Notes under the pieces: model-generated | What the model saw: only the letters and a program-made list of their open reading frames with translations | What the model was told of the DNA's origin: nothing | The model's database searches: none | Assembly: GCA_036924855.1 (NCBI GenBank) | Contig: JBAGRP010000001.1 | Span: forward strand, 1,240,001-1,304,000 | From: Nitrobacteraceae bacterium AZCC 2146 | Lineage (GTDB): Bacteria; Pseudomonadota; Alphaproteobacteria; Rhizobiales; Xanthobacteraceae | Reading direction: 5' to 3' | Length of the DNA: 64,000 bases | Shown: piece by piece, positions 41,523 through 53,030 of the stretch | How the letters are laid out: each line of letters begins with the position of its first letter | How positions within the stretch are numbered: the stretch's first letter is position 1 | Position numbers and translations under genes: made by a program

Positions 41523-41540
41523 ATGTTGACTTGTCAATAT
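41523..41540. promoter_or_regulatory. Palindromic operator, site 1 (ATGTTG-N6-CAATAT)
   Basis: ATGTTGACTTGTCAATAT differs from the ATGTTG-N6-CAACAT consensus by one arm base; within it TTGAC and GTCAA form a tighter palindrome. It lies between the chimera (start 41426) and the MarR gene (start 41697), where it could serve MarR autoregulation. Confidence 0.65.
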
Positions 41541-41696
41541 ACATTGACCGGCGCTCGTCCAAATCCGCAACATCGTGCGGCGGACAGACACTCGTTTGGC
41601 GTCGATCCGGCGTTGAAACGACTTGCGGATTCTCTTCGACCCCGCCAATAGTCTTAAAGCGCGATGTTTCACCATTACAGCTAGGATTCCGCAGGC

Positions 41697-42182
41697 ATGC
41701 CTACGAAGAAATCGAACAATGCGACCGAGGTTGCACTTCATCTTGAGCGATACGTTCCCGGCCTGCTGGCCTGGCTATCGAACAAGCTCGCGGGAAATGC
41801 CTCGCAGGTCTATCGCAGTCGCTTCGGCCTCGGCATCGTGGAATGGAGGATCCTGTCTTACCTCGCTGTCTATGAACAGGGGACCGGTGCTCAGATGAGT
41901 CAGCTGATGGGAGCCGATAAAGCGGCGATCAGCCGAGGCGCGTCGTTTCTCGAGGACAAGAAACTGATCCGGAGCAAGCAGGGTTTCGGCCGCAACCTCG
42001 AATTCATGCTGACGGCGAAGGGCCGCGAATTGCACGACCGCATCATCCGGCTCGCGCTTGCGCGCGAGGAGGCACTGCTCGACGGGCTGAGCAAAAAGGA
42101 GATCGGTGCCCTGATCGGATATCTCCACGTTCTGCTCAACAACCTACCGAAGGTCGAAGCGATCGACTCTCTGGAATATTGA
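41697..42182 (+). CDS. MarR-family transcriptional regulator
   Basis: A 161-residue winged-helix protein. FGLGIVEWRILSYLAVYEQGTGAQMSQLMGADKAAISRGASFLEDKKLI is the helix-turn-helix core, and RSKQGFGRNLEFMLTAKG the wing. The recognition helix (DKAAISRGASFLE) and dimer helices at both ends fit MarR. It is the only regulator inside the 41-53 kb block in which seven copies of an ATGTTG-N6-CAACAT palindrome occur, one of them in its own upstream region, so it is the best candidate to bind them. That assignment is inference. The downstream SDR is convergent, 33 bp away. Confidence 0.88.
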   Translation: MPTKKSNNATEVALHLERYVPGLLAWLSNKLAGNASQVYRSRFGLGIVEWRILSYLAVYEQGTGAQMSQLMGADKAAISRGASFLEDKKLIRSKQGFGRNLEFMLTAKGRELHDRIIRLALAREEALLDGLSKKEIGALIGYLHVLLNNLPKVEAIDSLEY

Positions 42183-42215
42183 TGCTGGCTGCCCTCGTCC
42201 GCTGTTCTGCAACGC

Positions 42216-42995
42216 TCAATCCCGCCTCGATGCTTCGCCGGCGTCGCCGAACGCGGTCCAGCCACCGTCGACGGACAGGATCGTGCCGGTGATGTAGCTC
42301 GCCGCGGATGAGCTCAGGAAGTGGATCGCGGCCGCGATTTCGTCTGGCACCGCCAGCCGCCCCATCGGGATGCGACGCTCGAGTCGGGGAGTATCAACGA
42401 AACCATCGGCTTCGAGCTTCTTGACGAGGTCAGTGGCGACAAAGCCCGGCGCTACCGCGTTGACGCGGATGCCGCTGGACGCCCACTCACAGGCCATCGA
42501 CTTCGTCATGGCCGCGATTCCGGCTTTGGCCGCGCCATAAGCGTTGCGGCGCGGCAACCCCGACAGGCCGGCAATCGAACTGATATTGACGATGGCACCA
42601 CCGCCTTGCGGCGCCATCAGCGCGTAGGCCTCCCGCGAGAACAGAAACGTTCCGGTGAGGTGGATACTGAGAATTCGCTCAAAGCTCTCCACCGTCTGTT
42701 CGATGGTCGGAAGATGCGGGCTGCCAACGCCGGCATTGTTGACGAGCACATCGAGGCGGCCGCCGAAGCGTGTCGCGATCTCGCCGCAGGCGCGCCGGAC
42801 ATCCTCTTCCCGGGAGACGTCGCAGGCGATGCCGAGATGCTGGGCGCCGAGTTCTCCGGCCCGTGAGGCCGCGCGGCGCGCATCGATATCGATCAACGCG
42901 ACCCGATAACCGTGCCGGGAAAACAGCTGCGCCGTGGCCCAGCCGATACCGTCCGCGGCGCCGGTGACGGCCGCGACGGGGCCTTGACCGTTCAT
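42216..42995 (-). CDS. Short-chain dehydrogenase/reductase
   Basis: A 259-residue classical SDR. VAAVTGAADGIGWATAQLFSRHG is the NAD(P) site, VALIDIDARR suggests NAD, VLVNNAGVGSP is the NNAG motif, and IVNISSIAGLSGLPRRNAYGAAKAG contains the catalytic Ser, Tyr and Lys. GTILSVDGGWTAFG closes the fold. GGAGGAA precedes the ATG at 42995. It is divergent from pobA, with two copies of the palindromic operator in between, so the two are probably induced together. The substrate is unknown. Confidence 0.9.
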   Translation of the reverse strand: MNGQGPVAAVTGAADGIGWATAQLFSRHGYRVALIDIDARRAASRAGELGAQHLGIACDVSREEDVRRACGEIATRFGGRLDVLVNNAGVGSPHLPTIEQTVESFERILSIHLTGTFLFSREAYALMAPQGGGAIVNISSIAGLSGLPRRNAYGAAKAGIAAMTKSMACEWASSGIRVNAVAPGFVATDLVKKLEADGFVDTPRLERRIPMGRLAVPDEIAAAIHFLSSSAASYITGTILSVDGGWTAFGDAGEASRRD

Positions 42996-43049
42996 TCTCG
43001 TTCCTCCCAGACTTTTCGCTCTATCCTTGCGGCAAGGCTACACCTCGAC

Positions 43050-43067
43050 TTGTTGTGATGTCAACAT
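43050..43067. promoter_or_regulatory. Palindromic operator, site 2 (TTGTTG-N6-CAACAT)
   Basis: This site is the exact reverse complement of site 7 (53013-53030) over all 18 bases. It lies 55 bases upstream of the SDR start at 42995 and pairs with site 3, 71 bp away, in the SDR/pobA divergent region. Confidence 0.8.
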
Positions 43068-43120
43068 TATGCCCACACGACGATCACGGTTTCGCCGTTG
43101 ACCTTCGGTCGCCGATCGAT

Positions 43121-51237: not shown

Positions 51238-51251
51238 CCTGCGTGTGCCAC

Positions 51252-51275
51252 TCGGGCTGGCTCAAGCCAGCCCGA
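51252..51275. terminator. Hairpin between convergent genes
   Basis: TCGGGCTGGCT and AGCCAGCCCGA form perfect 11-bp arms around a 2-base centre, just after the stop at 51237 and overlapping the last codons of the convergent monooxygenase (stop 51262). There is no run of T on either side, so it may terminate by another route or simply protect 3' ends. Confidence 0.5.
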
Positions 51276-52872
51276 AGCCTTCATAGTCCTGGCTGGCAAC
51301 GTCGTCGATGACCTTCTTGTAGACCGCCGCGCCGCCAAGATAGGGCATGAAGATGCGCGGCTTTCCCGGAATATTCGCGCCGACGTACCACGAATTCGTA
51401 TTCGGCATCATGGTACGGTTCGCCACTTCGTTGACGTGCGCAACCCATTTTTCTTCGGCTTCAGGCCTGGCCTCAATGGCCGAAAAACCCTTCTTCTTCA
51501 GATGTGCGATGCAGTCGGCGATCCAGTCGACATGCTGCTCGATCGACGTCACCATATTGGTGAACACTGATGGGCTGCCCGGCCCGGTGATGACGAACAT
51601 GTTCGGGAAGCCCGAGATCGCCATTCCGATATAGGTCTTGGGGCCTTCCGACCACCGGTCACGCAGCTTGACGCCATTTCGCCCCGTGATGTCGATGCGC
51701 AGCAGCGCCCCCGTCATGGCGTCGAAGCCGATCGCCAGGACGACGACGTCGAGATCGAAGGACTGCGACCTGGTCCGCACACCGGTCGGCGTGAGCGTTT
51801 CGATCGGGTCGCTTCTCACGTCCGTCAGGGTAACGTTGTCGCGATTAAAGGTCTCAAAATACGCGGTATCGACGCAGATCCGCTTGCCGCCGATGCCGTA
51901 GTCGCTGGGCATCAGCTTTCTGGCGACGTCGGGATCGCGGACGGTCGATGCGATCTTGCTCCTGACAAATTCCGAAGCGTGCGCATTGACCTCGGGATCA
52001 CTGGTCATGTCCGGATAGGCGTACATGAAGCTGATGCCGCCCATGGTGTTCCAGCGCCGCTCGAATTCCTTCTCACGCTGCTCACGGCTGACCGCGCTGC
52101 CAAGCGTCGCTCCGGCCTCGTTGAGCGTGTTGTTGCGTGTGTCCAATGCGGCCAGCCGGCGGTCGCGGTAGTTCTCCTTCCAGTCGCGCTCGTATTCGGC
52201 GTCCATCGGCCGGTTCAGTGCAGGGATCGAATAATTAGGCGTGCGCTGGAAAACGTAGAGATGGTCGACCTGCTCTGCGAGCAGCGGGGTGGCCTGGATT
52301 CCGGATGAGCCCGTTCCGATCAGCCCGACCCGCTTGCCGGTGAGATCGACGCCCTCATGCGGCCAGTCCGAGGTGCGGTAAATCTCGCCCTTGAAGCTGT
52401 CCATTCCCGGGAACGAAGGAATGATCGGAATCGATAGGCAGCCCGTCGCCATCACACAAAACGGGGCCGTAAAAATCTCGCCCGATTCGGTTCGCACCTC
52501 CCACAGCCGGGCGTGCTCGTCGAAGCTCGCGGCGATGACGCGGGTATCGACCTGGATATCGCGCCTGAGATCGAGCTTGTCGGCAACGAAGTTGATGTAA
52601 CTGAGGATTTCCGGCTGCGGCGCATAGAGCTGCGACCACTTCCATTCGCGCTGGATCTCGTCAGAAAACGAGAACGAATACTGCATGCTTTCGACATCGC
52701 AGCGGGCTCCCGGATACCGGTTCCAGTACCAGGTGCCGCCGATCGAGCCGCCGGCCTCCAGCACGCGGACGGAATAGCCGTCGCTCCTGAGCCGATGCAG
52801 CGCGTAAAGCCCGGCAAAGCCGGCGCCGATGACGATCACATCCAATGCGGAAGGTTTCTTGTTGTCGGTCAT
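51262..52872 (-). CDS. Baeyer-Villiger-type flavin monooxygenase with altered fingerprint
   Basis: A 536-residue FAD/NADPH monooxygenase like cyclohexanone or hydroxyacetophenone monooxygenases. VIVIGAGFAGLYALHRLRSDG binds FAD, GGTWYWNRYPGARCDVES is a strong family block, and VGLIGTGSSGIQATPLLA binds NADPH. The type I fingerprint FxGxxxHTxxW appears as FKGEIYRTSDW: the conserved His is Arg (codon CGC, one base from CAC). PNYSIPALNRP and a late NMFVITGPGSPS also fit. It would turn a ketone into an ester, though the His change could lower or redirect activity. AGGAAA precedes the ATG. It is divergent from the thiolase-like gene with operators 6 and 7 between. Confidence 0.87.
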   Translation of the reverse strand: MTDNKKPSALDVIVIGAGFAGLYALHRLRSDGYSVRVLEAGGSIGGTWYWNRYPGARCDVESMQYSFSFSDEIQREWKWSQLYAPQPEILSYINFVADKLDLRRDIQVDTRVIAASFDEHARLWEVRTESGEIFTAPFCVMATGCLSIPIIPSFPGMDSFKGEIYRTSDWPHEGVDLTGKRVGLIGTGSSGIQATPLLAEQVDHLYVFQRTPNYSIPALNRPMDAEYERDWKENYRDRRLAALDTRNNTLNEAGATLGSAVSREQREKEFERRWNTMGGISFMYAYPDMTSDPEVNAHASEFVRSKIASTVRDPDVARKLMPSDYGIGGKRICVDTAYFETFNRDNVTLTDVRSDPIETLTPTGVRTRSQSFDLDVVVLAIGFDAMTGALLRIDITGRNGVKLRDRWSEGPKTYIGMAISGFPNMFVITGPGSPSVFTNMVTSIEQHVDWIADCIAHLKKKGFSAIEARPEAEEKWVAHVNEVANRTMMPNTNSWYVGANIPGKPRIFMPYLGGAAVYKKVIDDVASQDYEGFGLA

Positions 52873-52947
52873 TAGGCATTTCCTGTCGAATTTGCTTCTG
52901 AGGCGCGCTGCCAATGCGCCGTTCGTTCGCGGCGTTATACATCCGAC

Positions 52948-52965
52948 ATGTTGAGATCGCAACAT
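52948..52965. promoter_or_regulatory. Palindromic operator, site 6 (ATGTTG-N6-CAACAT, perfect arms)
   Basis: ATGTTGAGATCGCAACAT has perfect arms. It lies 76 bases upstream of the monooxygenase start (52872) and 65 bp from site 7. Confidence 0.82.
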
Positions 52966-53012
52966 ACTTTTGTAGGCGGCGCAAGCCGATTGTGTGCTTG
53001 CTACCCGCAGAC

Positions 53013-53030
53013 ATGTTGACATCACAACAA
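53013..53030. promoter_or_regulatory. Palindromic operator, site 7 (ATGTTG-N6-CAACAA)
   Basis: ATGTTGACATCACAACAA has one arm mismatch and is the exact reverse complement of site 2. It lies 103 bases upstream of the thiolase-like start (53133). Confidence 0.8.

Follow-up and report, generated by a model that had tools for sequence, protein, structure and literature searches.

Seven palindromic sites as candidate operators of a MarR-type regulator in a compact catabolic block of Nitrobacteraceae bacterium AZCC 2146

The window analysed in the present study is a stretch of 64,000 nucleotides of DNA from Nitrobacteraceae bacterium AZCC 2146. Within it, a block of catabolic genes (positions 41523 to 53030) contains the gene for a MarR-type regulator (41697..42182, plus strand, 161 aa) and seven 18-bp palindromes of the form ATGTTG-N6-CAACAT, of which this protein is the likely binder. 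An initial annotation had reported these palindromes, and a scan of the window with up to three mismatches (20 matches) recovered all seven. The arms were perfect at 43121, 49988, and 52948, as had been described, and one arm mismatch was found at each of 41523, 43050, 50053, and 53013. The motif was symmetrical across the 18 bp, and the centre of the spacer preferred AT (11 of 14 half-counts per position). The seven sites, none of which is assigned to a strand, were spread over four divergent intergenic regions. Three of these regions held two sites each, one per unit, spaced 71, 65, and 65 bp, and the marR region held one site. On the reading that we favour, each of eight transcription units, which were inferred from gene order and form four divergent pairs, would face an operator. 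The distances to these units given below run from the edge of a site to the likely start codon.

In the marR region, candidate operator 1 (41523..41540; ATGTTGACTTGTCAATAT) is common to marR on the plus strand and to a livH-remnant unit on the minus strand, and it lies 156 bp before the ATG of marR and 96 bp before that of the remnant. In the remnant (40947..41426, minus strand), the N-terminus of a LivH-like permease continues in the same frame into the C-terminal part of an acyl-CoA dehydrogenase, and this fusion is probably a scar from the deletion of a second importer unit. In the second region, candidate operator 2 (43050..43067; TTGTTGTGATGTCAACAT) is located on the side of a short-chain dehydrogenase (SDR; 42216..42995, minus strand; identified by family profile matches), 54 bp before its ATG at 42995. 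Candidate operator 3 (43121..43138; perfect arms) is located on the side of pobA, 19 bp before the ATG at 43158, and overlaps TTGACC-16-TATGTT, the sole promoter-like match of a consensus scan. The pobA gene (43158..44327, plus strand) encodes a 4-hydroxybenzoate 3-monooxygenase (678.6 bits, cut-off 538.7). A second pobA, 72% identical, was found in the genome at 2912225, and its 4.2-kb locus contained no GTTG-N6-CAAC.

The third region separates the Liv importer from a nitronate monooxygenase-like region. The importer genes, all on the minus strand, encode a LivH-like permease (48938..49807), a fused LivM-LivG-LivF-like permease with ATPases (46431..48941), and a Liv-type periplasmic binding protein (45094..46368), and a second SDR (44357..45088) is the last gene of the unit. 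The second SDR and the binding protein probably form one unit with livH and livMGF, because the genes are close together on the same strand (44357-49807). A possible leader open reading frame (ORF) of 41 codons (49804..49929, minus strand; hypothetical) has a strong ribosome-binding site and an ATGA overlap with the livH start, which suggests that the two may be translationally coupled. Candidate operator 4 (49988..50005; perfect arms) lies on the importer side; the possible leader ORF starts 58 bp downstream of it and livH 180 bp downstream. Candidate operator 5 (50053..50070) lies on the other side, 44 bp before the ATG at 50115 of the nitronate monooxygenase-like region (50115..51237, plus strand). 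This region is split over three reading frames; two of its pieces, searched separately, each matched PF03060, and the split could reflect a broken gene or a sequencing error.

In the fourth region, candidate operator 6 (52948..52965; perfect arms) faces a Baeyer-Villiger monooxygenase (BVMO; 51262..52872, minus strand), 75 bp before its ATG at 52872. The BVMO is near phenylacetone and steroid monooxygenases (E 2e-194 to 1w4x), and its possible promoter TTGCGA-17-TATAAC, the best hexamer fit found, begins in an arm of operator 6. Candidate operator 7 (53013..53030) lies 102 bp before the ATG at 53133 of a gene for a thiolase/lipid-transfer-like protein (53133..53960, plus strand), which covers approximately the first 230 family residues only and runs into an IS3-type transposase gene (the element was named by eye). 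The 18-mer of 43050, read on the minus strand, was identical to that of 53013. These assignments amended the gene list of the initial annotation (pobA, the SDR genes, the Liv importer, the nitronate monooxygenase-like gene, the BVMO, and the thiolase-like gene) in three respects, namely that the nitronate monooxygenase-like gene is split, that the thiolase-like gene is truncated, and that the site at 41523 also faces the livH remnant. Judged from these features (the livH fusion, the split nitronate monooxygenase, and the thiolase-like gene running into the transposase gene), the block is partly decayed. Judging from the gene set, the block may serve to import and oxidise a ring compound, either alicyclic or aromatic, a substrate class that we infer from the predicted enzymes.

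The sites proved to be rare as well as local. No full copy was found elsewhere in the window, in agreement with the initial annotation, and the runners-up, at 21270 and 34939, carried two mismatches. All seven sites fell, as had been claimed, in intergenic DNA, that is, inside the 931 of the 11,508 block bases counted as intergenic (P ~2e-8), a count that depends on the likely start codons, and longer mechanical ORFs with earlier starts cover some of the sites. Family alignments put the starts of pobA (43158), livH (49807), and the BVMO (52872) downstream of the sites. Dinucleotide shuffling of the window (200 rounds) gave a mean of 0.0 perfect copies (maximum 0), where 3 were observed, and a mean of 0.1 copies with no more than one mismatch (maximum 1), where 7 were observed. 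A matrix built from the seven sites scored them at 22.6-27.8 bits, and the next place in the window reached 13.8 bits. In leave-one-out tests of the matrix, every held-out site was still among the first seven places of the window.

The same analysis was extended to the 7,640,769-bp chromosome. Many equally good copies across the genome had been named beforehand as a result that would speak against a local regulon; 11 places with at most one mismatch were found, 7 of them in the block, and all three perfect-arm copies in the genome fell within it. The presence of 7 of the 11 places within 11.5 kb corresponds to a binomial P of ~6e-18 for a stretch that was chosen after the fact. The exact shorter form TGTTG-N6-CAACA occurred at eight places, six of them within the block; one place outside it was at 7595294. 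When two mismatches were allowed, 108 places were found, compared with 34 for a reversed control pattern. Only near-perfect copies are thus informative, because the two-mismatch pattern is no longer specific against the background. The four places with at most one mismatch outside the block (439175, 3882823, 5886184, and 6193995) were single sites, two of which (3882823 and 5886184) sit within long open frames, and all four were judged to be chance occurrences.

The protein encoded at 41697-42182 has the features expected of a MarR-type regulator. Its AlphaFold2 model (mean pLDDT 83.4) showed the helices and strands of a winged-helix fold. The best Foldseek match was 3nrv, a MarR/EmrR regulator (TM 0.79 and 0.89, E 6e-9), and the MarR-type DNA complexes 4lln, 8ylg, and 5h3r were also matched. 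A profile comparison with 3nrv gave E 7e-23. With the single sequence as query, Pfam returned PF13601 alone, at 22.1 bits and below the cut-off of 27. The close protein relatives (61-94% identical) were mostly metagenomic, with others from Bradyrhizobium sp. DASA03007 and CCGUVB23, and many had been named MarR by their source. The portion of PMC10458429 consulted describes MarR operators as palindromes of about 16-20 bp. All eight units, marR included, have an 18-bp palindrome ahead of them, so that the seven sites would be plausible operators of this type.

Absence of the sites from related genomes that carry these genes had been named beforehand as a second result against the proposal. As a proxy for that test, and to assess the link between protein and site independently of the window, we compared the loci of MarR relatives. 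The test set comprised 88 loci of the same bacterial family (32-47% identical), with our own locus excluded and two paralogues from this genome included; 89 loci had been retrieved of 92 places, and three near contig starts (G237, G176, and G214) were left out. From the 3-4 kb fetched around each locus, we scored a zone that begins 450 bp ahead of the marR start and ends 1000 bp beyond it. The core GTTG-N6-CAAC was present in this zone in 70 of the 88 loci. Its copies numbered 79, where base composition predicts 1.49, and control spacers of 0-5 and 7-14 yielded 0-7 copies each. When all 4-base arms at spacer 6 were compared, GTTG was found in the most loci (70), followed by CGCG (45). For an unrelated MarR (29459-30031), the 29 best loci among its relatives, own locus excluded, had no core in the same zone, and the core was also absent from the 450 bp upstream in 29 relatives of the BVMO. 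Since the core occurred in 70 of 88 MarR loci, compared with 0/29 for each of the two controls, it travels with the MarR and not with the enzyme. In the closest group, each of the ten same-genus relatives carried GTTGAC-[C/G]T-GTCAAC about 115-122 bp before the aligned marR start. In nine of the ten, AT preceded this site (ATGTTGAC), which is close to the site at 41523 (ATGTTGACTTGTCAATAT). More generally, operator 1 resembled sites preceding the marR genes of relatives, for example ATGTTGACCTGTCAACGG. On a weakly resolved tree, in which our own row was scored as site-bearing despite its one mismatch, upstream sites were clustered (5 changes, compared with a shuffled mean of 19). Ten neighbour genes were picked by hand beside MarR relatives; six, of which five run divergently from marR, encoded Liv-type binding proteins, and the other four encoded a CYP199A-like P450 (L035), an AMP-binding enzyme, a CoA-ligase-like protein, and a protein without a Pfam match at 1e-10. 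These neighbours fit the theme of ring-acid uptake and oxidation.

Several described MarR systems resemble the present one in part. BadR, which controls cyclohexanecarboxylate genes in Aromatoleum sp. CIB and Rhodopseudomonas palustris, is a MarR repressor of a ring-compound cluster, as is proposed here, with a similar layout. According to the sections available of PMC9795900, the Aromatoleum BadR has a pair of operators between divergent promoters, both of which overlap predicted -35 boxes; the operator is CAA-N4-TTG, and a CoA thioester relieves repression. Compared by operator, as far as those sections describe it, our system differs, with TTG-N6-CAA (core GTTG-N6-CAAC) at seven sites in four divergent regions. 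In Rhodococcus jostii RHA1, the p-hydroxycinnamate repressor CouR binds cATTGA-N5-TCAATg overlapping the -35 box, and p-coumaroyl-CoA abolishes DNA binding (PMC4737184, in part). Compared by this box, the TTG-to-CAA spacing is 6 here and 7 in CouR, and the gene sets differ. The MarR regulators of auxin degradation (iac and iad) in Variovorax, Bradyrhizobium, and others are likewise tied to the catabolism of a plant ring compound, and our fold matches included 7kfo and 7kym, the MarR structures from Variovorax and Bradyrhizobium japonicum (22-23% identical); the parts of PMC9613470 consulted give no operator motif for them. A further likeness is to the unnamed MarR subfamily of the same bacterial family, in which the core is common and some members have a Liv-type binding protein or a CYP199A-like P450 as a neighbour; there, within the 3-4 kb per locus, mostly one or two sites lie near marR, and the outer bases differ. 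In the open-licence literature, no operator was found described for this subfamily.

Taken together, the rarity of the sites, their intergenic position, and the association of the core with the MarR subfamily supported, at the level of sequence, the earlier proposal that one regulator controls the block. The seven sites almost certainly answer to a common regulator, and that regulator is very probably the MarR protein encoded beside them. Overall, with good though slightly lower confidence, we propose that the seven palindromes are operators of the protein encoded at 41697-42182. A MarR dimer would occupy each 18-bp site and place a winged helix on each ATGTTG arm. It would then lie near the -35 box of the facing unit, or near the -10 box in the case of pobA, and would thereby block RNA polymerase. 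The positions of the sites suggest that they may overlap promoters; the gene-facing arm often yields TTGNNN with a weak -10 hexamer at 16-18 bp, and some outward-facing arms score equally. Repression would then probably act by promoter occlusion; the overlap with promoters is suggestive at most, because the hexamers fit loosely and the yield of the consensus scan did not exceed chance. Autoregulation of marR would follow from the arrangement in its own region, where a single operator would serve both marR and the livH remnant. A ligand from the pathway would free the dimer and thereby allow Liv import, alcohol/ketone interconversion by the SDRs, oxidation by the BVMO, and hydroxylation of 4-hydroxybenzoate by PobA to be switched on together. 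We tentatively place the effector among ring-containing acids, ketones, or CoA thioesters.

A number of observations weigh against this interpretation. The promoter hexamers were weak, and the consensus scan returned 1 promoter-like site, compared with 2.5 expected from shuffles. Of the 70 relative loci with the core, 20 had it upstream of marR and 50 had it beyond the marR stop codon, at a distance of 113-176 bp in 49 loci and of 14 bp in one. No core was found in the zone in 18 of the 88 loci, some of them fairly close (L014 and L018, ~42-43%). Among 12 more distant or out-of-family relatives, 2 had the core in the same zone; L042 (44% identical) was without it. Moreover, the 70 loci are not independent, with 55 of the 89 tree rows forming one clade that contains many near-copies. 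The same block, which a strict test of conservation would require, was found in none of the genomes searched. Finally, two paralogues encoded in this genome, at 7194746 and 1108878, belong to the subfamily that is linked to GTTG-N6-CAAC and could bind the same core. As a separate observation, the conserved palindrome past marR (in 50 of the loci L013-L112) often read TAGTTGCC-NN-GGCAACAA, and in the printed loci, judged by eye, a leftward ribosome-binding site and an ATG frequently came after it.

Either of the two paralogues, or several together, could bind the seven sites, in which case the local MarR would not be the main regulator. Their own genes do have core sites, GTGTTGACCTGTCAACCG before one marR (L054) and TAGTTGCCTAGGCAACAA past the other (L055), but these differ from the block sites in the spacer and in the bases flanking GTTG. 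The full perfect-arm motif is confined to the block, where one site precedes the local marR, and we consider control by the paralogues unlikely. Control of pobA and its neighbours by an AraC-type regulator (39068-39943), with the palindromes serving some other purpose, appears very improbable. AraC-type proteins often regulate pobA. The AraC-type gene here lies within 4.1 kb of pobA, and its product resembles HpaA, which regulates 4-hydroxyphenylacetate genes (146.2 bits, under the 274.65 cut-off). However, direct repeats are the usual targets of AraC proteins, the surroundings of the AraC-type gene held no copy of the site with two mismatches or fewer, and the core of the palindrome tracks the MarR subfamily. 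Spread of the palindromes by duplication, as a repeat family or structural element, would account for the identical 18-mers at 43050 (minus strand) and 53013 and for the three similarly spaced pairs, but it is the least credible alternative and can be practically dismissed, given that the repeat within each pair is 17-23 nt, barely longer than the site, that the 21-bp flanks have no evident likeness across regions by eye, that the spacers differ, and that none of the seven palindromes lies within a gene. Two other MarR genes of the window, at 29459-30031 and 63516-63995, were considered as sources of the binder and rejected, as their products have no significant similarity to the 41697 protein and the 29 loci compared for the first were without the core.

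If the seven palindromes are indeed operators of the local MarR, the result is a compact regulon in which one regulator, seven operators, and eight units occupy 11.5 kb, and the remainder of the genome offers four competing places with one mismatch. A local catabolic regulon under MarR control would be of a kind already known, and the likely operator core of the subfamily is a by-product of the analysis. The core could serve to predict regulons across these bacteria, and paralogues with one core site offer material for studying how repressors avoid cross-talk. A more speculative extension, which we regard as possible but doubtful, is that an undescribed MarR subfamily, probably of a Bradyrhizobium-like family, shares one core, and that its paralogues (three here) are told apart by the outer bases and the spacer. 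The local copy would then have captured a catabolic block through an operator at each of its divergent promoters, and the paired sites 65-71 bp apart may bind cooperatively or form loops that co-switch divergent units.

The history of the block was examined in related and more distant sequence collections. In a search of 265 genomes from a related genus, no MarR relative reached E 1e-35, and in 397 genomes of the order (E 1e-22) none besides the gene itself exceeded 46% identity. A contig search returned eight loci with MarR relatives, all at most 44% identical. Among plasmids, 43 records contained a MarR relative, all below 60%, and 15 matched DNA of the block, none over most of it; the same block was not found in viral contigs. 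The best BVMO relative in 391 family genomes was 59% identical. Doublets of TGTTG-N6-CAACA sites with 35-65 bp between them occurred three times in this genome, in none of 17 other genomes of its own genus, and in 1 of 265 genomes of the related genus (L050; G395:C20), where no MarR relative was found in the 3.1 kb around the doublet. The block looks accessory because no doublet was found in the 17 genomes, no MarR relative in the 265, and no BVMO relative closer than 59%. Among 119 family genomes, the MarR gene at 63516-63995 matched its own genome alone (E 1e-12 or better), and it also looks accessory because the 118 other genomes contained no relative.

Further genes in and around the block bear a resemblance to enzymes of cyclohexanecarboxylate aromatisation (Chc). 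The SDR at 42216-42995 scored 219.9 bits against ChcB2 (cis-4-hydroxycyclohexanecarboxylate dehydrogenase), below the cut-off of 350. Just outside the block, a flavin adenine dinucleotide (FAD) enzyme (37147-38874) resembles the 4-oxocyclohex-2-ene-carboxylate dehydrogenase ChcC2; it reached 576.6 of 900 bits for ChcC2 and 357.7 of 1000 bits for ChcC1. With ChcB2, ChcC1, and ChcC2 all below their equivalog cut-offs, the two proteins are best regarded as related enzymes and not as confirmed Chc members. Also outside the block, a cyclohexanecarboxyl-CoA dehydrogenase-like gene was found at 62327-63595, and its family match ends 30 positions early. The IS3-type element at the end of the thiolase-like gene is present in two inverted copies (53886-55069 and 60201-61384, identified by eye from the translations), and this pair encloses a resolvase-like gene (55329-57434) and an IS21-like pair (57792-60073), both also recognised by eye.

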